A stretch of 39,460 bases of DNA from Chloromonas sp. AAM2 (taxonomy: Eukaryota; Chlorophyta; Chlorophyceae; Chlamydomonadales; Chlamydomonadaceae). Shown here one piece after another: positions 15,166 through 30,800 of the stretch. The notes under the pieces were generated by a model, which searched no databases, was not told where the DNA came from, and was given only the letters and a program-made list of their open reading frames with translations. The stretch covers positions 1 through 39,460 of the forward strand of contig QAXH01006340.1 of NCBI GenBank assembly GCA_004335635.1. The letters are read 5' to 3'. The position numbers and the translations under genes are program-made. The stretch's first letter is position 1; each line of letters begins with the position of its first letter.

Positions 15166-18100
15166 TTATTCAGCAGGTGCTGGCTTGGGCGCTGGGGGCT
15201 TTTCAGCTGCAGCTGGCTTGGGAGCAGCTGGCTTAGGCGCTGGGGGCTGTTCAGCTGTGACTGGCTTGGGAGCAGCTGGCTTGTCTGCGGGTGGGGGGGC
15301 AGGCTTGGGCTTTGGGGGGAGGGTGCTGGCGGTGACCGCAGCAGCCTGCAAAGTAGAGGCAGAGACAGAATATGCCTAAGTAATAATAAATCTTGAATAA
15401 GTCGTTGTGCAGATGCATGCCAATCCAACTGGCACAACAATATTTGCAGTCAAGAGCCTTAAACGACTGCTACAGGCAGGAAAGCAGGAGTAGGATGCAG
15501 CATCGACAGTCTGACGAAGCCAGCACGTGCCATGAGTAAAACGAATTGCTGAACAGAAATCAACCAGATAAGAAGACGACAGAGTTTGCAATAGTAGTTT
15601 TTCAAGGCAGCGTGAAGACAGGCAGGTGGAGGGCGACTCAGCACGTGCAATAAGTAAAACGGATATCCTGTAAAATGGAACCAGACGGACAACCAAGCTG
15701 ATTTACTCACCGCTTCCTTGGCTGCCTTAGCCGCCGCCTCAGCTGCCTTAGCCTTGATTTCTGCCTCAGCACGTGCCTGGAAACAGAAAGTAACGGCAAG
15801 CACGTGGGTCAGTAGATGTCAGGGAGGTGAGGAGGTACTTCAGCACCCGGCCATGTTCATGAACCCGGCATGCACCCAGCCATGTTCATAAACCAACGTT
15901 GGGTGGGTAATAACCAAACTGGACCCAGTTTCTCTAACTTCCTTCTGTCCTTCCAACTAGCCTAGGCCACAGAGGGCTTCAAATACATCCATTGTGCATC
16001 ATCTGATCAGTCGACCGCTCTCCCCCCTTCATGTTGATGGAATTTTATCCTTTGTATTGACCTAGCTTGACTTTTTTGACTTTTTTAACTTGGCTGATCA
16101 TTTTAGTTACGTCATCCTTTTTTCATGGCCTGCATCCTAATCTCTAGCTCCATGAACGGCTCCACCATCATCACTATAGCTCAGCCCCTTACCTTCTGGA
16201 TGGCCTGTACCCTAATCTCCAGCTCAATGGATGACTTGGCCAGGAAGTCTGCCTGTTCCTTGGCCAGTTGGGCCGCTGCCTCCGCGCGCGCACGCGCCGA
16301 CTCAGCCTCAATCTGGGCCTGCAAAACCAAAGCAACAATGTCAATCAAAGAACCAGTGTCAATTTGGTACTACGCTCGCACATTGTTGACTCCGCTCTAC
16401 CTGGGCCAGCAGAATAAGACTAAGGATCAAATTCAGATTGTTAATGTAGACTGCTGGTATAAGGATGTCTCAAGCTGTACCTGAAAAGAAAAAGCAACAC
16501 TCCGCAGTCTACTCTCAGTACTCTTTGACATTGTGATGAAATGTAACCCTCGCTTGCCCACCTTCATCTGAGCGTCGTATGCAGCCTTGGCACGAGCAGC
16601 TGCAGCCTCCACCTTGGCCTGAACAAGCACGTGACACCAGGTACTGGGGTTTATAGGCAAACAAGTTATTGGGATACAGTGACCCAAACTCAACATGCTG
16701 AAAGGAATTTGTTGTTGGTAATGACACAGATTGGGCCTTAAGCAAGAGGTGCACGTTGTGGCACTGGGAGGTTGAGCAGTGCGCACTGAGCACCATGTTG
16801 TGCAATAAGGGCAGAGCAGCATGTTATGAGAGCCTAGGCGGTTCACGCCAGGGCTCATCGGAAGTTGATGCGATACATTTGCAGACTGCTGACAGGCGGA
16901 GCTCCTGTCCTACCCTGTCCGACCTGAACCCTACCTTGCCCTCTGCTGCTTTCCTTGCCTCCTCCGCTTCCATCTTGGCCCTGACATCATCGGACAGCTT
17001 CTTCAACCGATCCTCCTCAGCCTTGCGAATGGCAGCCTCAATGCGGGCCTGCGCAAATAGTTAACAGTTGGTACCACAGTCATTTGCATGGGCAGCGCCC
17101 AGCCCGCTGGTCAGTCACGCGTGTGCAGTTCGACCGGATACAGGCTGGAACAGCAGTTGTTCAGTGGCCCTTGAGTGCAGTTGTCACGGAAAACTACCGC
17201 AGAACTTACGGGCAGTGGATTGGTTGCAAGCACACACAGCCAGGGAAATTTTGCCAGTTCTGGGACACTTTGATCGGTTCCTGTGGTGACGCGTAATGTG
17301 ACTTGATGTGTCATCTGATGGATGTATTGCGTGGCGAACACTCGCTGCGCTGCCCGCTGTGGGTCAAGCAAGCGCCAGTTCTTGCTACTTCACCGCGTCA
17401 GGAGGCGCTCGTCTCCAGCTGTAAACTCAGCCAACCAGAGGTCGCTTGTTTTAGAATAACACGCTGATCATTTGCGACTGCTCAGCGGCTTACCACTCAG
17501 CGGCTTACCGACGAATGAACCACTATAACGACCTCTGTGCCCAGTCAATAAGTAGAAAGCAGTTGAGAGCAGAACACACCTTCTCTTCAGCTTCCTTGAC
17601 TGCTGGGTCCACTGGCTTAGGCTTAGGCGCCTCCGCTGGTTTGGCTGGTGCTGGAGCGGCAGCTACGGCAGCTGCAGCTGCTGCTGGCGCCGCTGGCTTG
17701 TTCATGGCTTCCAGCTTGGCCCTTAGCTCTTTGAGTTCTGCCTCTGCCTTGGCACGAGCCTTGGCCTCTGCTTCAACCTGTACACAACACGCGTTATCAA
17801 TGATTCAGTCCAAGTGAAGCACTACTGCTCACTGGTGCAACTATTGTGTCTGCACGTTGGAACAACCTTTTCGAACCTTGAAATTCATCGGAAAACTATG
17901 CTCTGGCAAACTAGCGAACAACCCTGGAACAACTTTGAGGACTTCTGATACCTGAAAAGTGACAAGTGACTTGCTCGTAATCTTTGAATCTAGCGGGCCG
18001 GCGATATACTGCGGAAATCAAACCTTGACCCTAACACCAACCCAAACAGTCCTACAGACTAACTACACTCTGACCTCCGTGTTTGAACAACCACCTTAGA

Positions 18101-21100
18101 ACCACCTCCTGAATCCCCCCTGTGAAGTATGGCCACGTGGCTCTCAATACCCACCTTGGTCTTAATTTCCAATTCCACGTTGGACCGGATTTCTGCCTCG
18201 AGCTGCTTCCGTTTCTCTGCCTCCGCCTTCTGCTTAGCTTCCATCTCTGCCTTGACCTTCTGCTCGGCTGCAAGGCGCACGCGCGCCTCCTCTTCAGCCT
18301 TGGCTTTTGCCTCGGCTTCCTTAGCCTGTAGGGAACAGGGTTTGGCCAGGTCAGGCTAAGGTTGAAGTGGTGTTGGACTAGGATACAGCTAGGGTTGGTT
18401 AGGCAAGCATTCAGGCTAGGAGAGTGCTGGGGTTAGGCTTGGTATTGAAGCATTCAGGCTAGGAGAGTGCTGGGGTTAGGCTTGGTATTGAAGCATTCAG
18501 GCTAGGGTAGAGCTGGGGTTAGGCTTGGTATTGAACTCAACACCAAACACGGCATGCGACATGCAATACAATTAAATGATTACCAACAATTGAACTACGA
18601 TTCAAGCGTGTAATTCACGACCTGGTGGTCCAGTCGTAGGCACTACACATACCTGAATCGCATATGTGATAAGCTCGACTCAGCATTGCTTACCTTGGTT
18701 TCCTCCTCCTTCTTTGCCTTGGCTTCAGCAGCAGCCTGTGGTGTAGGGAAAAACAGGGTGTAAACACAGGGTCCGTTAAGGGTACTGAGGAGTCTGGCAT
18801 GAGTGAGGCAGGGAACAGCTGAAAGCAACGGTAAAGAGGCCTACCTGTGGTGTGGCGTGAACAGGAAACAGGGACAATCCAAGCAGTGTGGGCTCATTGT
18901 GTACAGTGGACTTGGCTTAAGAAATATAGAGTAAGGCCAGCCTTAAGAATATATAGAGTGCAGGATGAGGATCTGACTTTGTTCTTCATAACGTATGATA
19001 AGGTGCTTGACCAGAAGATGTCACCTACTGAGCACGTGGAAGTTGTTCACGGCTGTTACATGCCACACGTGGCGACCGTTTCTCCAGCGACCGTTTCTCC
19101 AGTGACCGTTTCTCGCTCACCTTGTCCCTGGCTGCCTGGATTGCCTCTGGTGAGGTGGATGATACCACCTTGGGCTTGACCACACTCGCCTGAAACACAT
19201 GACAAGCACGTGCAGTGTGACGTTAAAACAGTAAGAAAAAGCAGTGTGAGAGGGGCTCAGAAACGTGAACAGCATAAGAGCAGTGCGATGGGGTTTTCCT
19301 CTAGATAAGCGCACAGGCTGTAGTTTGATATGCCTCCTTTCCATAGCCGACGTAGATTAATACTTAACAGCAGCAAATAACTTCAGCACCACCAGTATAC
19401 AAAGCAGGGCAACTAAGGGCGCTGCCATCAACTACTGATGAGATGATTACCACAAGCCACTGACCAAGGCGATTGGTTTCCAGTTTTGAGTACGTTTCTT
19501 GCACTTTGCTACCGCGCCACACAAGGGATCTGCGACCTGTGACAAACTGGGCAGACACTGCACCACATCTCACCTGCGTGTTTGCTTCGTTCGCTGCCTG
19601 GTTATTCTGGCTGACTTGCACCAGCAGCATGGCGCCCGCTATCCCTACTAGACCGATGGCGCCCACTCGCGCAAAGTTGACTAGGGAATCCACCATGTTG
19701 GGCTCATCATCCTGAACAGGAATAAACATACAGTAGGAGAGTATAGTAGGGCTAGGGTTTGGCTACGATTGTATTGGAGAGTTCACTAGGGAATCCACCA
19801 TGCCGGGCTCGTCGTCTGCATGGGGTGGATATAAGGAGATGAGGTGTACAGCTTAGGTAAGGGCTGGGTGGAGCTGGTGTAGGCAGGTTGATCGGGCTGT
19901 GCTGAGGTTGAGGCTGGGGCTTGGCAAGGATTGGGCTAGGGTTGGGCTAGGGCTTGACGATTAAACAATATGAACCCAGTTTTGTGCGCTCGTTGTGTCC
20001 ACCTCAGTCCGTTTCTTAAACACCGTCAAGAAATGCATCCGATGTCAAGATCAGCACGATGCAAGGAAGAACATTGCAACACGAACGATGCAAAAACAAA
20101 ACAGACTGCTACCCGCCAATCAGTACAAGAACAACAACACTGTTGAGTACAAGAATGTATCTCCCTCTCACTCACTTCATCGAGTGAGTCGCTTGCGCTC
20201 CTGAGCTTCTGCGCCACGTAGGCCCTCGAGCTCTTGGCGCTGCCGTTGGCCGAGGCAACCAACTGCTCGATGTAGCTCGCGTTCTTGCCCTCGCCCTTGC
20301 TCTTCTCCTCTGCAACAGAGCGCAAAACGTCATTGATGGCTGGTGTCAAGCAATTCCAATACCAAATAAACGTGGCACGAGATACGTTCCTCGGTGACAA
20401 TCGTCATGGCACAGTATGTTTCTCGCAACTCCTAACTGATGCCGTGCGATCAAGGCATTGGCTACATTTGCAAACCGCCTGTCGTACGGTGCTGGCGATT
20501 GACTACGGTTTGCAAACACGGAGCAGTACACCCGATAGATAATTCACAACATCTCTTTGAACTGAGTTTCAAGATCCCTGGACGACCAATGCGCCGTTGG
20601 GCTCACCCTTGGACTCGCTCTTGGGCTTGGAGGACTTCTTGACGTCGTGGTGCTCATCCTTGTCGGTTTTCGTGGTGGTTTTTGAGAAAGGCATCCAGTG
20701 GCGATCGTCGTCGTCGTCACTGTGTTTGCCGTTTCCGTTCTTGCTGTGTTTTGAGGTCAGCACCAGCTCGCTGTCGCCATTGCTGCTGTGCTTGTGCGAG
20801 TCGCCACTGGAATTGCGCAGGCAAAACAAGGAACAAAGGCACTGAATTGCTCGTGCAAGCTGGCCCCTGTGCACCCAGCAGCTTGGAAACCATGTACCGC
20901 CAACATAGTCCAGTGGTAAAAATCAGAAGACGACAAAACGATGCAGCAATGCTTGCACAGTCGAACCCTTCCGTCGCTGATTGATAGATATACCACACAG
21001 TACAGCTGCAGAAGTATTAATCACGAGTGGTGCTGAAAATGTCAAACCTCTGAGTAATAACATCTGATTTGTGTGGGACATCCCGTACCTGCTCGACTTG

Positions 21101-24100
21101 GAGGGTGCGGGTGCAGCCACCTTGCTGGCCAGCGATGACAAGGCCTTAGTGGGCGTGGGTGGGGTGATGGAGGGCATGCGGGTGGGCTGGGGGCTGCCGG
21201 CGCGAACAGCCAACATAGCGATGTTGTCCTGCAGGCAGAATACGTGCACAGGCACAGTTGAGCATTTGGCAGAATGAAGCATTTGACGCAGCCACCAAGG
21301 CAATGTTGTCCTGCGGACAGGGCATGTTTGGGTGTCCACCGTTTGACGTGCCAGTGCTGAGATGGATTATTCTGAACAAGGCATCCTGACCTAGTACGTC
21401 AAATGTTGGAAGGGCATAGGCAATAGAACTGGCAGGAAAACAGAACTGCCTCTGGATTGTTAGCTTCACCCTGTCGCCTGAGGCATCAGCAGTGACAGCA
21501 CTGTCCAATGCAGAGCCAGAGCGACCTTGACAAGTCAGTTACTTCAGTTACAACTGTCAGTTACTTCAGGTTGACTATGGTTATTACCCTCACCCTGTCG
21601 CCTGAGGCATCAGCAGTTGCAGCACTGTCCAGGGCGGCAGCCAGAGCGACCTTGATTTCGGATGCGGCGGGGCGGGCGAGCTGGGGCGAGGCGAGGCGAC
21701 CAGATGGCTTTGGGGAGGGCTCAGGAGATGGGGAGGGCTTGGGAGCGGCCTGGAGCAACATGTTTACAGCGTCAAAGGTATTTGCTGACAACAGGCAAGC
21801 TGCCACAGAATACAGAACAAGGGCCTACCCTGAGCAAGCAAATAAAACGAGCGAGGCAAACAGAGCAGGAATGATGGGTCGAAGGGAGGCAGGTAACAAA
21901 ACAGACAGTCCCGGATGGTGCTTATCAGTTCAAGCCTCGAAATGTGAACCGTGGTCGAACCTTGGCGTGGTAGTGCCTAGCCTTAACTTAACCCCAACGC
22001 AGCAACATACCTTCATGGCTTCAAGCACTTCCTTGGGCGGAACAGCAACCTTGGGTTTGTCCTCCTTCTTCTCACTCTTGACCTCCTTCTTCTCACTCTT
22101 ATGGTCATCGTGATGATCGTCATGGTGATCGTCATGCTTGCTGGCCTTAACGTCCTTCTTCTCCTTCTTCTCCTCCTTATGATCATCATGATGGTCGTCG
22201 TGCTTGGCCTTGACGTCACTCTTCTTCTCCTCCTTCTTCTCACTCTTCTTGTGATCATCGTGATGGTCATCGTGATGGTCGTCATGCTTACTGGCCTTGA
22301 CCTCCTTCTTCTCCTCTTTCTTCTCGCTCTTCTTATGGTCGTCATGATGATCGTCATGGTCGTCGTGCTTGGCCTTGGCATCACTCTTCTTCTCATCCTT
22401 CTTCTCGTCCTTTTCGACGGTTTTAGAAACGGCCTTCATGGCGGCGGCCTTGGCTTGAGCAGCGGCGAGGGCAGCGGCGGCGGCAGCAGCAAAACCGCTC
22501 TTGTCGGTTTTGGCCGCTTGTTCCTTGGCTTTAATCTGCGCGGCCATCAGGGCAGCGGCCATCTGTTCGGCACGCTTCTTGTCCTCGCTCTACATGGCAC
22601 ATGCAATGCATGTTTCACGGTGTCAGTGTCGCATCGCACTGCCACAGTCGCAACGCGCACAAGACAAGCATTCCAACTTTCACAACGATCAACGTCAGCA
22701 TCACACTCTATCACGCCGCTGATGCTTTGCTACAATAGACTTGACAGGACAATGCCACATGGCGCATGAAATGCAATGCTTTGTCTCTCACCAGCCTGTC
22801 AGTCTCATGTTCTTCCTTGTGCTCTTTGTGTTCCTTCTTAACTGCCGCCACAGGCTTCTCATGGTGGTGGTCGTCCTGCATGCAGACTTGTCATTGACTA
22901 AGTTTGGTGGCTGGAAACCCGCTGTGCAGAGCCTGTTGCTGTTGAACGGGATGCTCTGAATAGATCTGCAAATGTCATGATGACGATGGTCAGCAGACCA
23001 TTTTTCTGATGCTTTTCTTCGCTTGTTATACCTTGACCATTTTGTGGTAAGTATTACAAACAACTTGAAGAGCCTGCACACCGCCGAGCTCATTTGCACG
23101 TGCTTGACTGCTTGGGGACCGTTATCCTCATGATTTGCGTACGGGTTGAAGTAGGGGTCTGCTTAGCAACTAGTCTGTTTGCTCTGACGCACAGCAAAAC
23201 TGCATTATATGAAAAGCCACGTGAAGATGAGTACCCACCTTGTGGTGATCGTCTTTATGGTCCCCAGTCTCCTTAGCCTTGGCTTCAGACTTGAGCAACT
23301 GGAAAGCAGCTGCCGTCAGCTTGTTCTTCCAACTGCTGCTAGAAAGCGCCTCCTCTTTCTTCTCACTCTTCTCCTCGTGCTTGTGGTCACTCTTCTCGGC
23401 CTTGGCGTCACTCTTCTTCTCCTCCTTCTTCTCACTCCTCTTGTGATCGTCGTGATGATTGTCATGGTGCTTGGCATCGACCTTGGGTTTGTGGGAAAGG
23501 GCGGCGGCGGCAGCGGCAGCTGCGCTGTCAGCTTCCTCATCGTCCTTAGCCTGAGGCCAGATTACAAACATGAGCATTATGCATTGGTTGGTCAAGTCGC
23601 AAAGTACCAAATATGCACTCCTCAACAGAAATGCTGAGACGTAGAAATATCAGTTGGCACCAAGCACCAAGCATGACACTGACGTAATAGTGATTCTGCT
23701 GTACTTGACCGAGCTCTAGCCCAACCCCAGGTTCAGCACAGCCATCTGTCATGGCTTTCCCGACATCAATTGCGTCATACCCGCAGCTGTAGCTCGTTTG
23801 TTTCCGGCTGGTTCCCTGCACTTAATCTGCCATTTCTTGATTTCTCTGCTGCGTGCTACTCAGACCTCATTGTTCCAACCTAAAACGTGGAAAGGCATTT
23901 CCAACACAAAACAACACACAGCCACACACCTTAGCAGCCTTGAGTGCTGGGGCCCAGCTGAGCTTGCCGGCAGCACTCTTCCAGGAAACGGCCTCGGGCT
24001 GCGGGCAGGCAACACGACCAATGCATGGTGGGCTGACGGAGCATAAAAATACTATCACCATGCACTGCATGTCGAGTAATACCAGTGTTAACAAGTACAA

Positions 24101-27073
24101 CGCAGCGCCATCAATGCATCGCCATCTCCTCCCTCTCTTTAACCCTGTTCTGCGGCCCTAAGGCCCCGCAAAACCCTTTTCCAATCTTTATTGCGCTGTC
24201 CCACCGTCCTGTGCCAGGTTGTTTCCTCCACTTTTTCCCTGTGTGGCCCAAACTCGGCTGGGCATGTCGCTCGTCCTGCCCCATGTGAGCCAGTACCCTT
24301 TCCCACCTTCTTCGCCTCCTCCTTCTTATCCTCCTTCTTTTCCTCTTTCTTCTCTTCCTTCTTCGCCTCAGTCTTTTTCTCCTCCTTCTTCTCTTCTTTC
24401 TTTTCCTCTTTCTTCTCCTCCTTTTTCTCCTCCTTAGGCTTAGAAGGAGCTGTGATGGCTGCAGCAGCCTTATCACTCTTCTCACTCTTGTCACTCTTCT
24501 CAGACTTGCCTGTATACACGTGCAAGCAGGCACGTGCATCATGTACCATCAGTGTGAACGCCCAAGTCTACATGCAGCATGCTCTGTCTCAGCCGTCTCC
24601 TAGACTAGGCCATATTCTTTACTCCGGTGACACTCCATCCTTTCTGCCTCTGGCTGTTGATCATTTGAAACAGAGGCACAGACAGTGCATCAACCACGCA
24701 AACACCCACTTGCCGTCTTACCTACATGTGCCATGCGCCTATCCCACCGACTTTTACCTTCCTTGATGATGACACCCCCTTGATGATGACACCCCATCCC
24801 GGTCTAACGCATGATCACTGAAAACAGCCCACGATCATTGAAAATGACGGATAGTTGGGTACAGCCCAGCTGTGCTATCTGCGCCGCTGATGAACTGGCC
24901 AACCCTTCGCCTGCCCTGCCTTGCCGTACCTGCATCTTTTGGCTTGCTTAGACCGGGCAAAGTGGCCACAAAGCTTGATCCCATGAGGTTCTGGCCCCAC
25001 TTGCACGCCACAGTCATGCTACCAGGCATGTTGGGAACCTGCCGCCAACATGCACACACGTGGTTCTTAATGCATCTGGGGGCTGACTGCTTGTATGATG
25101 TCACGAGCACAATGCGATCGATTCCAGAACGAATGTCAAGACTGAGGCCCAGAGCAGCCACTGTCCTCAACTTTCCTGGTATCAGGGGCACTGCCACAGT
25201 TGAGTGAGTGTTGCCAGGCAGTGGGCCTGGCACATGGGCATGACCAGCGCTCTGCGCCCACTTCAGAACACCCCTCAACGGCTGCGCAGGATACTGAACT
25301 AAGCCCTGAGTCTTACCTCCAGCACTCTGTTCTGTCCCTGCTCCCAGACGTACTCGCCTGAGCCCTGGGTAAAGATCAACGCCTGCATACAGGACACGGG
25401 ATCAGCCCGCATATTGCACAAGAATTACAGCGCCTGACATACAGCTAACTCGAAACTTAGACCTGACGTCTTGCTGCTCAGCTTACATCGTCTGCATCCA
25501 CGTTGTGAACTCTGATTGCGGCTTCTGATTACGTCACATGTCTGGCCTATCGCTGTCTGCATACCTTGAATTCATAGATTCCGGGTTTGAGCTTGATGTC
25601 AGAGACCCAGACGTCACCCTCAGACCACTCTGCACGGCAGCATGGATGCACCCCCGTGATCATCATGTCATTTGCAACACAATGTACACCAGTCCGTGTG
25701 ATTTGTAACACAATGTTCACCAGTCCGTGTGGCCAGACATGAGGCCAGAGGTTGGGCATGCCCAAATGCATGGCGCACTACCATCCGATGAATAACATGC
25801 TGCGCCATAGCCATGCAATTGCTGCACATTGATATGTGACAATGCAGCCGGTAGGCGATAGCAACAGGAGGAGTGGCCACATTCACATATCATTATCATC
25901 ATGAACGCATGGCACAGCATATGAGCCAACTATTCAGCGCAGAAGCTAGGGTAGGCTAGGGTAGGCTAGGGTGATTGCTCTGCTTGCTTTCTCACTCACT
26001 CATGTTGGGGGCGGTGGCGGGCTTCCAGTTGTTGAACTCAGGGGAACCGCCAACCAACTGCAACAGAAACAACCAGATCTCGAGTGTGAGAAGCGTAGCA
26101 CCAGAATGATAGCGCAGATACATGAGTGGGTGTCTCGATGCCAGCTGGGTGCTCCATGCAGAGTGGCCATTGAATGTGCCTGTTGGAACTGGGGTTTGAG
26201 CATGTGTGTGACACGAGCAATGCAATGTAGTGTTGAGATACATGAGTAAGGGCGGGATACTTTCGTACCAGCGTTGGTCGTGGGTTCGGTCTCTCCTTGC
26301 AGTGGCTTACGCTCATGTCAGTGTTATGCCAGTCCCAGGCACCATGTGCCGTCGACTGAACTGCCAACCCCTGCTTATGCACAGCATTTGACCAAACTGC
26401 CCATGCCTGCTTGTCTGATAATCGAACTCTGTCTCAGGCCCACTATTGCCGCATCTGTCTATTCTTGACTGGGCGCGTGTCCAGCCTTGCCACTTATCGT
26501 ATTGGCTGACCTGGTGCTGAGCTGTTTCGTGCTGCTCTGGGGTAGTTCATTCCTGATAAGCGATGGTCTGACAGCACATTGTACGCTTGCATGCCAGTCT
26601 GTCTGTCCTGTTCCATTGGTGCTGGCAATGGACCAGCTGTTTCACAACGGCATGCCTCTACCTATGCTGACACTGGGCAAGCTGGGTGCAAGAGACTGTC
26701 TCCGGCTGCCTGTTGTGTTGTCATGCAGTTTGCGCGTGGCTGCCGCGGAATACCTGGCTGCAGGGGCGGCTGAACCCGTGAGGCGGAATCGACATGCTGG
26801 CATGCAATGGGCGGTCTGGCTATTGCCGGTTCATTCTGGCAGGTTTGACTAAGTCAAATTCGCCGGGCAAAGCCGGAAAGACCACCGCAAAAATTGTTGA
26901 GCCATCTTGCTGCATGCTGGCTCAGCCAAGGGTTCATCGGCTCGCCGTGCTCAGAGCAAAAGTGTTTGCGGCGCAGAACATGCGGCCAGCTCGCCCCGCA
27001 CCTTGAGCACTTGTCCGAAGGGCACTTTCATTGGAAGAGCAAGCTTGACCTGGACAAGGTCGGTCGAGGTCTC
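15166..27073 (-). CDS. CBM20 starch-binding, transmembrane, coiled-coil protein (24 exons seen, at least 1135 aa, 5' end unresolved)
   Basis: Exons: 27073-27002, 26057-26000, 25629-25565, 25382-25317, 25038-24930, 24509-24307, 23998-23930, 23550-23239, 22875-22792, 22589-22011, 21749-21594, 21228-21089, 20806-20607, 20309-20176, 19711-19574, 19189-19121, 18735-18694, 18325-18155, 17777-17580, 17048-16935, 16618-16562, 16318-16193, 15776-15711, 15345-15166. All join in phase. Residues counted from 27073: CBM20 1-90 (VPFGQVLKLVGGSPEFNNW, GIYEFK, VWEQGQNR, keeping the Trp, Lys, Trp and Asn used for glucan binding in fungal CBM20); Lys/Glu-rich 124-191; Ser-Trp-Lys motifs near 197 and 288; His/Asp repeats 347-539; Pro/Ser-rich 540-749; one membrane helix about 765-783 (VGAIGLVGIAGAMLLV); coiled coil 796-1076; Pro/Ala/Lys tail. 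Likely a plastid starch/pyrenoid scaffold, comparable to Chlamydomonas SAGA proteins (CBM20 plus coiled coil). Function is inferred; the exon chain is strong. Confidence 0.85.
18407..18535. repeat. 43-bp tandem repeat, three units
   Basis: The units at 18407-18449, 18450-18492 and 18493-18535 begin GCATTCAGGCTAGG and end GGCTTGGTATTGAA. The first two are identical and the third has a few changes. It lies in an intron of the CBM20 gene, between exons 18735-18694 and 18325-18155. Confidence 0.92.
19072..19116. repeat. 15-bp tandem repeat abutting a splice donor
   Basis: There are three units of GCGACCGTTTCTCCA (the last is GTGACCGTTTCTCGC). On the gene strand (minus) the array begins within the donor region of the intron after exon 19189-19121. 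Confidence 0.8.
19782..19820 (-). repeat. Diverged copy of the transmembrane exon's 5' end
   Basis: This matches 19675-19714 closely, including the shared core ACTAGGGAATCCACCATG. On the minus strand it retains a TGCAG acceptor followed by an open frame equivalent to exon 19711-19574. It is an intronic duplicate upstream of the real exon. Confidence 0.75.
21464..21530 (-). repeat. Diverged copy of an exon 3' end and splice donor
   Basis: This is about 67 bp near-identical to 21588-21655, the end of exon 21749-21594 with its donor. The protein sense DSAVTADASGDR parallels DSAATADASGDR in the real exon. It lies just downstream of the real exon, in the intron. Confidence 0.85.
21793..21840 (+). 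repeat. Partial copy of the dispersed intronic repeat
   Basis: This shares AGGCAAGCTG and the terminal CTACCCTGAGCAAG with the copies at 31769 and 35344. It lies in a CBM20-gene intron. Confidence 0.55.
22060..22385 (-). repeat. Coding repeats: His/Asp-rich and Lys/Glu-rich modules
   Basis: Within exon 22589-22011, four successive modules read roughly KHDDHHDDHHDDHK then SEKKEEKK then DVKA. A fifth, more diverged module is in exon 23550-23239 (HHDNHHDDHK, SEKKEEKKSDAKA). Potential metal binding through His/Asp is inferred from composition. Confidence 0.9.
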
Positions 27074-27273
27074 CTGCGATGCGCAATCAAGCTTGGCCGT
27101 GAGAGGTTTACGCGCACCGCAGATTATCAAGAACAAACCTTTCCCCATCTGAGAGCACTGCATAGGCCAATGGATGCAGCACTGGCACACCTTTTCCAGT
27201 GTGGCCACGGCTGAGCCCTTCGATGACTCTGCCTGAGACCGGACCAGCAGCCTGGCAGTCCCATTACCGCTCA

Positions 27274-27501
27274 CGCACGGCCCAGCGTGCTGACGTGCGA
27301 TATGTTGTCCTCCTGCAAGACAGCAGTGCGCAAATGGCTGAGCTCAGCGTGCCCGGCCCCAAACCCTGATAACTTCTGCTGCTCAGGGCCTCGCTCACCA
27401 GTGGCCTGCTGCGTGGTGTGGCTGCGTCCGCCGATGTGAGCCGGCACCGTAGGTGCGCGGCTAACTCCTGCTCCAAGTTTGCTACCGTGTTGCGTCTTCA
27501 T
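27274..27501 (-). other. Candidate first exon / transit peptide of the CBM20 gene
   Basis: A Met at 27501 opens a basic, Ser/Thr/Ala-rich frame (MKTQHGSKLGAGVSRAP) that could be a plastid transit peptide. Two donors (GTGCGT and GTGAGC) lie near its end. Joining to the CBM20 exon is uncertain: an acceptor at 27073/27074 is phase 0, while an upstream AG near 27150 would extend the exon. The start codon of the gene is therefore not fixed. Confidence 0.3.
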
Positions 27502-27830
27502 AGTGACTCTGATGCCTTGCTACACAACCGTGGCCCAGGTTGAGCGCAGGGTTTGCGCAGGCCTGCTCCACAGGTCTTCGCCGCAGGTGAACAATTCTAG
27601 CCCCTGATTTTTCTGATTTGGCACGTGCACGGGAAAGTATCCTCAAAAGGTTGCAACTGCCAGTGCGCTTTTGTCGCAAAGCGGCTGGGCTTGCAGCGCT
27701 TATCCACAACACATCAACGCAATCAGCAACATCATCAGGCAACAGTACACAGTGTGCATAAAGAGCACAAAAGGAGCTAACCGCGTTTGACCATGCAGAC
27801 CGCTTAAAATTTGGACCGCATGAGGCATCG
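27502..27830. promoter_or_regulatory. Head-to-head region between the CBM20 gene and the membrane-protein gene
   Basis: About 330 bp lie between the candidate minus-strand start (27501) and the plus-strand start (27831). If both starts are right this is a shared promoter. A minus-strand open frame crossing it (27482-27883) overlaps the start of the plus-strand gene and is judged a shadow. Confidence 0.4.
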
Positions 27831-30800
27831 ATGAGCGTCAGAGAAATGCGAGCTCTGGCCTGGCTGGTCGCTGCTGTCTGCATCAGCCTTCTCGGTCACT
27901 GCGTGCATGGCGACCAAAGCAACGTCCGCAGCTGGAAGGCCGCTCGACAGGACGCATCAGGGGCCCTTCCGCAGCATCCCGGCCCCCATGAAGTAGGCTC
28001 ATCGAGCCATGCCATCGAACGGGTGCCTGCGAAAGCGCAAGACAGACAGGAGTCAACACCACCACTACCCGAGCCTTCCAACACCCCACAGCCTGCCGTA
28101 TCATCCCAGCCTCCAAGTGCCTTTGCATGGCTTGTTTGGAGCCATGCCTTGTGCGTGCTTGGCGGCTATCTCCTTGGCAGGATAAACAGCAGTTTAACCA
28201 GCAGCGGTAGCTGTCCGTCAGCGAGTCATAGCAATCCATCAACGCCCCGCGCCTCCATTTCATCGCCTTCCGCTCCTCCCGGTCTGCAACAGCCTGGGAC
28301 GAATGCCCTGACGGCAGCATGCCAGGAAATGGTGCTCACGGCACATTCAGCACACAGCAGCCCAGCCACGAAGAGCGCAACATGCAGTAGCAACGAAACG
28401 CTACATGTGCAGCAGCACAGCAGCACCGCGCCATGCATGGAGGACCCGCACATGACTGTTGCACTTCAGCACCTGCTGCCCCGTGCGCAAGACCCATGCA
28501 TGCATGCAGCCACACCTCTGCATGCTGCAGCTGGCCACATGGGCCATGTAATCACTTCTCACACCGATCACGATCTTCCAGGCCATCATCAAGGAGCAGT
28601 GCTTGCCACTGGTCCACAGCTTTCATACCTTTCAGCATCGCCCTTCCCAGCCGCACAGAAGAGTGCAACACACGGCAATACTTATGTTCGGTCTGTGCCT
28701 GTGGCGGAAGCAGTCAGCCACGTGGCAGGGCAGGAAGGTCGGGAAGGCCAGGCACTACCAAGTGAAGCGAGTGATGGAAGTCAGACATGCAGCCGCGTGT
28801 ATACAGGGAAGGGAGAACTGGGGCAACAGCAGCAGCAGCAGCAGCAGGAGCAACGGCAGCAACAACAACAACAGCAGCAATGCCAGCAAGTACTTGATGA
28901 GGTGGACGCTGGAGACAGCCAGCTGCCGTCCCACACCAGCCATGCAGACACCACCAGCATGGGCAGCAGCACAGATGGCAGCCATGGCCCCAGCAGCCAC
29001 AGGAACAGAGGTGGAAACCGTGATGCCATTGGCAGTGGCAGTGGCAGTGGCAGTGGTAAAGGGTTTAGCACTGGTGCTGGGGCCAGGCCAAGGGTTCGCC
29101 GGTCCTGGAGCAGCAGCAGCATGCCGGCTGGCCCAGCACCTGCTACAGCCACAGCTGCCTCCAGCGGCTGCCAGCCAATCAGTGCCCTGGCCCTGCCCCC
29201 GCCATTGGCACAGCAGGCAGACTTAGCGGCAAGGGAAGGGGACGAGAGGCATGGGACGCCTGCGGTGCACTTTGAGCTGCGGTTGAGCCATGCTGCATTG
29301 GACACTGCAGTGCATGCCATGGAGGCAGTGGCGCACACACTCCATGCACTACTAAGGTGAGGCTGTGCGTGACATGATCTGACTGGCATCGCTTGGTTGA
29401 TGTTCTAGTGGAAAGCAGCGTTGACTCCACCTAATAGCACTGCCATCGCCATTACCATTGCCAATGCTTGGTCAGCAACGTTAACAACTGCTTATCAACG
29501 TTACGTAACAATGTATCATTCTCACGTTGTCGATGTGAGTCCTACATTCCTGTGCATTATACGATTTCGTCTTCTGAGCTGGCTTTTTGTGAGTATGATG
29601 CCCTCATTGTCTCATGGTTGGCTGCTGCCCTATTGGCGAGAAACCTCTGTCAGCTCTGACTCCTTTCGGCAAGATCTATGGCTTTGACACCTTTGGGCTG
29701 TTGGTCTTACGCTGCTATAGGTCGTCTCACTCACACCCTGGCGAGCTGGTCATGCAGGCCATGACCAGTACAGTCACGTCTTGAATGTGATAGCTTTCCG
29801 TGCGATGGCCGCATGCAGGCCTGTAAAGGAATTGTCATCAGGCGTGCACCATCAAGTGGCTGCAGTGGCTGGATGCATTGGCATCGTCAGCCAAATCAAA
29901 GCTCGCCATGCACAAGATCGTATGTGATGAACATATGACACATGTGGTGGCCGCATGCAGGCCTGTGAAGGAGCTGTCATCAGGCGTGCACCACCTAGTG
30001 GCAGCAGTGTCTACCCTCAATCAGCATGCGGAGGATTGCAGGGCGGCGTTGGAGCGGGTGGCTGTGAAGCTTGACAGCGCATGCAGGGCTGCGGATAGGT
30101 GGATGGCATGGAACGAACTCTCTGCGCAACAGGTAAGCCAACGGGTTAGTTGGTTGGTTGGTTGGTTGGTTGGTTGTGCTGCATGTGACAGCCTACCCAT
30201 TTGCCATACTTGCGTTGTTTTGTTCATCAGACCATTGACATGGAACATCCACTGTGCGACTCAGCTGTTCAGTTTCATTCTGTGCGACTCGGCTGTACAG
30301 CACATGCACTGTACCGCATGCACTTTATCGCACGCACTTTACCACATGCATGTGCTGTGTGCAGGTGTTGGGAGGGCGGTGCATGCAACTGGGCATGGGC
30401 CTCATGTCGATCACACTCCTGACCAACTCAGCCTTCCACGGTCGGCTGCATTACGTGGCACTCGCCTGCTCTTCACACGCACACGCAACCACCACCAGCT
30501 CTGCTGCTAAGGGCTTTGCGTGGCTGTGGGCCCGTTCGCCTGCGGCTTCGCTTAGCTATATGTTGGCCATGGGTCAAACTGTGCTGTGCACCTGCCGACA
30601 ATTGGGTGAGTGTCAAAGGGGCAGGATTGCGAAAACAGGAAGGAAACTGCAGAGGCAGGGTAAGAGAGGGGAAGAGAGCTTTGCTTGGCTATGGTAGCCA
30701 TGGATCCATTTTGGCTGTGCACCTGTCGACAATGGGGCGAGTGTCAGAAGAGTGTATCAGTGCCAATCGTTATCATGCTGTGTAGTAACACACAACGCCG

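Follow-up and report, generated by a model that had tools for sequence, protein, structure and literature searches.

CBM20 proteins at starch and at membranes

In animals, STBD1 (genethonin 1) combines a CBM20 domain with a membrane helix in a single chain and tethers glycogen to membranes, and in Arabidopsis the membrane-anchored helical protein MFP1 and PTST2, with its glucan-binding module, place starch granules at the thylakoid. In Chlamydomonas, the available text of PMC11649565 reports that part of the CBM20 protein SAGA1 occurs in the membrane pellet and along the membranes that traverse the matrix, and that SAGA1 is enriched at the points of membrane entry into the pyrenoid even when starch is absent; its homologue MITH1, described there as lacking a Rubisco-binding motif, binds SAGA1 and co-pellets with membranes. 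Cre09.g394510, also from Chlamydomonas, combines an N-terminal CBM20 with a C-terminal t-SNARE and lies at the starch-matrix interface, where its authors propose a role in membrane remodelling (PMC10473203, in part), and further CBM20 proteins encircle the pyrenoid (PMC10473203, PMC10473226, both in part). CBM20 starch scaffolds of this general kind are already known, and SAGA1 already places a CBM20 protein at membranes; the gene described here is a variation in that a spanning helix is predicted in the same chain.

The gene product resembles STBD1 in joining a glucan-binding domain to a membrane helix, which here is predicted and marginal, but STBD1 binds glycogen, has the reverse order (helix near the N-terminus, CBM20 C-terminal), is not a plastid protein and lacks a long charged helix. 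It differs from MFP1/PTST2 in being one chain with a CBM20 rather than two proteins and a CBM48. With SAGA1 and SAGA2 it would share a chloroplast location and the linkage of a CBM20 to a long helical stretch, whereas the portions of the sources at hand mention no membrane-spanning helix for either (PMC11649565, PMC10473226); the same portions give SAGA1 two Rubisco-binding motifs, a feature unsupported here, and by these descriptions the helix is set apart as charged rather than leucine-zipper-like. The likeness to Cre09.g394510, as partially described, is an N-terminal CBM20 with a C-terminal helical domain of membrane-linked type. The first-pass annotation had held up starch binding and membrane anchoring in one chain as a departure from SAGA1 and MITH1; the predicted same-chain helix survives as the contrast, but the membrane association of SAGA1 itself (PMC11649565, in part) narrows it.

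How pyrenoid starch gets placed and held beside membranes is an open question, and crop pyrenoid engineering still lacks a solution for placing starch. Crop pyrenoids also still require traversing membranes and a CO2 diffusion barrier (PMC10473203, in part). A single starch-binding, membrane-spanning protein, if real, would be a simple part for pyrenoid building.

A predicted 26-exon gene on the minus strand

Within the window (the whole stretch of DNA analysed, 39,460 nucleotides), a predicted 26-exon gene runs on the minus strand from an ATG at 27501 to a TAA at 15166, its 3633 bases specifying 1210 amino acids plus the stop:

27399..27501, minus strand: exon 1 of the exon chain, ATG and first 34 residues, transit-peptide-like
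27191..27312, minus strand: exon 2 of the exon chain, aa 35-75, remainder of the transit-peptide-like N-terminus
24930..27073, minus strand: exons 3-7, CBM20 (aa 82-167) and C-terminal extension to aa 198
27002-27073, 26000-26057, 25565-25629, 25317-25382, 24930-25038, minus strand: exons 3-7 singly
20607..24509, minus strand: exons 8-15, charged region of low complexity (about aa 199-779) containing KEEKK and HDDH repeats
24307-24509, 23930-23998, 23239-23550, 22792-22875, minus strand: exons 8-11 singly
22011-22589, 21594-21749, 21089-21228, 20607-20806, minus strand: exons 12-15 singly
23930..23998, minus strand: exon 9, SWKSAA stretch (W272), a relaxed look-alike of a Rubisco-binding motif; a second look-alike, SWKNKL (W363), is in exon 10
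20176..20309, minus strand: exon 16, acidic stretch preceding the membrane segment, with a net charge of -6 in the 20 residues ahead of aa 840
19574..19711, minus strand: exon 17, predicted membrane segment (aa 837-857 at 19613-19675)
15711..19189, minus strand: exons 18-25, long Ala/Glu/Lys helix region with a break at aa 993-1020
19121-19189, 18694-18735, 18155-18325, 17580-17777, minus strand: exons 18-21 singly
16935-17048, 16562-16618, 16193-16318, 15711-15776, minus strand: exons 22-25 singly
15166..15345, minus strand: exon 26, Pro/Lys/Ala-rich tail and TAA stop
17877..17951, minus strand: possible in-frame cassette exon VSEVLKVVPGLFASLPEHSFPMNFK, outside the model, between exons 20 and 21

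The interval assigned earlier, 15166-27073, equals exons 3 to 26 exactly and leaves out the two 5' exons (27191-27501). Exon sites and frame were chosen by eye on the minus strand and then checked by script, so the splice-site scores are a consistency check rather than a blind prediction: scored by weight matrices built leave-one-out, 24 of the 25 donors ranked above 95% of decoys, as did 20 of the 25 acceptors. All 25 introns are GT-AG (mean length 348 bases), 20 of them are in phase 0, and across the exons the chosen frame contains one stop, the terminal one, against 21 and 92 in the other two frames. The earlier claim of a phase-consistent exon chain is thereby confirmed at the level of sequence, and the sequence supports the placement of the transit-peptide-like N-terminus, the CBM20 and the predicted membrane helix in one consistent chain.

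We also considered that two genes might have been fused in our reading, one with the CBM20 that stops short of exon 17 and another for a membrane protein with the charged helix. A methionine in exon 17 (aa 830) shortly before the membrane segment could serve as a start, and the intron before this exon, at 464 bases, is the third longest of the 25. However, exon 17 follows an acceptor and reads on in frame from exon 16, whose end is marked by GTGAGT, and the donor and acceptor of that intron beat about 98% (0.017) and 99.5% (0.005) of decoys, respectively, making a fusion of two genes very unlikely in our estimation. The longest intron (944 bases) falls inside the CBM20, and those from the CBM20 to the membrane exon are all at most 464 bases.

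Several smaller features accompany the chain. The candidate cassette at 17877-17951 comprises 75 open bases with AG before and GT after, its donor (GTTCGA) looking weak. Two exon parts recur in neighbouring introns as partial, decayed copies, the end of exon 13 at window 21457-21507 (90% over 51 bases) and the start of exon 17 at window 19780-19816 (86% over 37 bases), a sign of exon duplication within the gene, and the intron between exons 19 and 20 contains a 43-base unit repeated three times head-to-tail (window 18405-18533; 100%, 100% and 93%). TGTAA poly(A)-like words are too common to be informative, the nearest one 3' of the stop lying 1.2 kb off.

A transit-peptide-like N-terminus and a CBM20 domain

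The first 62 residues contain neither D nor E, the first acidic residue being residue 63. By simple composition, such a run has a chance of about 6.5e-6 given 17.5% D/E protein-wide, a fraction that the low-complexity parts inflate. From its sequence, the N-terminus looks like a chloroplast transit peptide.

Downstream of it, an HMM search identified Pfam CBM_20 (PF00686) at aa 82-167 (E 5.2e-12), covering model positions 2-91 of 97, with a score of 45.8 bits when the full chain is searched and of 51.2 bits when the domain is searched by itself, against a cut-off of 23.3 bits, in agreement with the CBM20 assignment made at first reading. The closest solved relative is the cyclodextrin glucanotransferase 4jcm (E 3.4e-4), and W110, W126, K140, W153 and N158 each align with the identical residue in its domain, at what we take to be sugar-binding positions; judged by sequence, the CBM20 looks capable of starch binding. 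Across the whole chain, hmmscan at E up to 1 returned CBM_20 and a sub-threshold X25 only and no t-SNARE match, and we rejected membership of the Cre09.g394510 type.

The charged middle region and the Rubisco-binding motif

Between the CBM20 and the membrane segment, aa 181-836 make up 656 residues of which 50% are D/E/K/R/H and 11% hydrophobic, so the length of about 650 charged or disordered residues given at first reading holds. Units of the form HDDH or HDNH number 12 in aa 318-584, and the region also includes a run of KEEKK units.

Rubisco-binding motifs have the form [D/N]W[R/K]xx[L/I/V/A]. The strict (D/N) form has no match across the window protein, and the relaxed form has two (SWKSAA at W272 and SWKNKL at W363), which is not above chance, as at least two occurred in 440 of 5000 shuffles. 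The alga's own Rubisco small subunit differs as well: among D23, E24, M87, L90 and V94, presumably the positions of the binding site or pocket, an alignment reveals that D23, M87 and V94 are all replaced by S while E24 and L90 are retained. On these three grounds we rejected the Chlamydomonas-type Rubisco-binding motif as a link to the matrix. That a single chain ties together starch (through the CBM20), the Rubisco matrix (through helical patches around W272 and W363) and the entering membrane (through the spanning helix) strikes us as highly improbable; if true, one protein would do what SAGA-, EPYC1- and RBMP-type proteins split among themselves in Chlamydomonas.

A probable charged helix towards the C-terminus

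In aa 894-1151 we counted 68 opposite-charge pairs at i,i+4 spacing against a shuffled mean of 22.6, a number reached in 0 of 1000 shuffles. Hydrophobic helical periodicity is absent from aa 894-994 (198 of 1000 shuffles reach the value) and patchy in the second half, where 9, 0 and 490 of 1000 shuffles reach the values for aa 1020-1151, 1031-1068 and 1088-1151, respectively. A Pro/Ala stretch (aa 993-1020) interrupts the helix and a Pro/Lys/Ala tail follows it. By this pattern, a stiff charged single helix fits better than a long coiled coil: of the coiled coil of about 280 residues proposed earlier, a long helix remains likely, but heptad periodicity is weak or absent over much of it.

A marginal membrane segment and a putative starch-to-membrane tether

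The membrane segment, aa 837-857, has a mean hydropathy of 2.04 over 19 residues, matched in 0 of 500 shuffles. By predicted insertion energy, it is the sole segment below zero (-0.16), the runner-up being at +2.79. Two natural yardstick helices score -1.26 and -1.65 on the same scale, however, and by that comparison aa 837-857 is weak as a membrane helix; it is also rich in glycine. The prediction therefore bears out a single membrane helix in so far as this is the only inserting segment, with insertion itself marginal.

Net flank charges on the N- and C-terminal sides are -3/-1 over 15 residues, -6/+1 over 20 and -4/0 over 30. By the positive-inside rule, these charges would favour a stromal C-terminus and are mildly against a stromal CBM20. 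A stromal location of the CBM20 is still our preference, since the stroma is where starch lies and stop-transfer import would leave the N-terminal part inside; this conjectural import route would override the flank charges.

These features are compatible with a nuclear gene for a chloroplast starch-to-membrane tether, a proposition that we regard as evenly balanced and yet as likelier than any of its rivals. The N-terminus would serve as a transit peptide by which the protein enters the chloroplast, the CBM20 would grip starch in the stroma, and the disordered stretch would act as a flexible leash with a length in the tens of nanometres. The hydrophobic helix would halt in a plastid membrane, either the thylakoid or, by stop-transfer during import, the inner envelope, with the C-terminal charged helix as a possible spacer or partner-binder on the far side of the membrane or along it. 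Starch grains, perhaps pyrenoid starch plates, would thus be kept close to a membrane, a pyrenoid role for the tether being less probable than the tether itself. The first-pass annotation had proposed just such a direct tether; the presence of the CBM20 and the predicted helix in one chain upholds it, while the marginal helix and the adverse flank charges weaken it. A charged tail of 350 residues inside the thylakoid lumen would be odd, which also counts against a tether.

The helix could suit the inner envelope as well as the thylakoid. As a special case of the tether, the CBM20 would then be stromal, the charged helix would lie in the intermembrane space, and starch would be held near the envelope with no role in the pyrenoid. 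ARC6, which undergoes stop-transfer during import into the inner envelope, provides the model, and a lone segment that comes two thirds of the way through the protein, after a long N-terminal part, would suit this route; the missing D/N Rubisco-binding motif and the altered small-subunit pocket also favour the envelope. The sequence is nevertheless equally mute on envelope and thylakoid, having no feature that distinguishes them, and we regard the envelope location as possible though doubtful.

The marginal insertion energy and the glycines of the segment would equally suit a SAGA-kind CBM20 scaffold, soluble or peripheral, that organises starch at the pyrenoid or at some other stromal site and in which the segment is buried in a helix bundle or lies flat on the membrane without spanning it. 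The flank charges, which oppose a stromal CBM20 combined with a spanning helix, point in the same direction, as does the membrane association of Chlamydomonas SAGA1 in the available text of PMC11649565. As aa 837-857 alone falls below zero and has a hydropathy that no shuffle reached, we consider such a scaffold unlikely; the relatives that bear on it are described below.

Relatives of the gene

A search of the alga's own genome with the whole protein, in which 38 of 83 candidates were scored, listed 30 matches, 23 in its own contig and 7 elsewhere. The latter, on contigs C192 (twice), C224, C373, C400, C2276 and C2224, all fall within aa 84-141, and among the matches listed from these 38 of 83 candidates the charged, membrane and helix parts did not occur a second time. 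With E values allowed up to 1, the CBM20 profile matched the same genome 15 times, across 12 contigs, with identical scores for C224, C373 and C400; the window gene's own short exons are not among these matches.

By eye and without a full gene model, C2276 (L015, L014) encodes a CBM20 followed first by a low-complexity stretch and further on by a very long Ala/Glu/Gln helix, and 3 of 4 intron positions inside the CBM20 are, also by eye, in common with the window gene; by layout, C2276 is the best SAGA-like candidate in the genome. C402 likewise has a CBM20 followed by a leucine-bearing coiled coil, and in C192 (L042, L041) CBM20-like parts alternate with disorder and a Gln-rich helix (both by eye). 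Judged by these three layouts, several CBM20 scaffolds exist in this alga, the window gene being among them with a predicted membrane helix in addition. Such CBM20 relatives with disorder and long helices count in favour of the tether and also of the SAGA-kind scaffold for the window gene; the scaffold is favoured too by an eye-picked hydrophobic stretch of C2276, which has an insertion energy of +1.81 and is not predicted to insert. Elsewhere in the genome, G000:C478:14884-24883 (L020) has several CBM20-like pieces in a row within 10 kb (with NW and WE.G.NR motifs), possibly a single multi-CBM20 protein.

Outside this genome, a protein search with aa 70-215 covered 329 candidates and gave none at E 1e-3, and in viral contigs 4 pattern matches were obtained, none of them a relative. 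No relative with the CBM20-plus-helix layout came from these collections, which apparently include few or no algal nuclear proteins and so carry little weight here.

The host

On the plastid contig, rpoB lies in two reading frames, one with domains 1-3 and the external domain and the other with domains 6-7, and a split rpoB is a chlorophycean trait. Homology of the plastid psaA fragment begins at residue 79 of its best chain (739 residues; 6qph, which we take to be from Dunaliella salina), and the best solved-structure match of the alga's rbcL and small subunit is 1gk8, presumably Chlamydomonas Rubisco. Given the rpoB and psaA features, a trebouxiophyte host was rejected. An 18S pattern gave 0 matches in the genome. 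LCIB-family matches on three contigs (C773, C1463 and C1677) would fit a CO2-concentrating mechanism, and a pyrenoid is plausible because the host appears to be a chlorophycean alga with LCIB-family genes. A bestrophin search of the genome gave no match and carries no weight, its controls having been likewise silent. The assembly further contains, on C1812 (L011), adjacent intron-free rbcL and rbcS unlike the alga's own, which is probably a bacterial contaminant.

Surroundings of the gene in the window

Divergent from the gene, a 532-residue open frame at window 27762-29357 on the plus strand has a signal- or anchor-like hydrophobic start and no Pfam match. None of 7 flanking reading frames had a Pfam match that passed the cut-off, the best being DUF2537 (E 0.0015, below its own cut-off), and names for the flanking genes were rejected as unsupported. 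Rfam and tRNA scans of the window returned no match. CACGTG occurs 28 times in the window against 12.7 expected from dinucleotides, and 67 times against 45.9 expected in 12 other loci of the genome, which indicates that the excess is in part shared by the genome at large.
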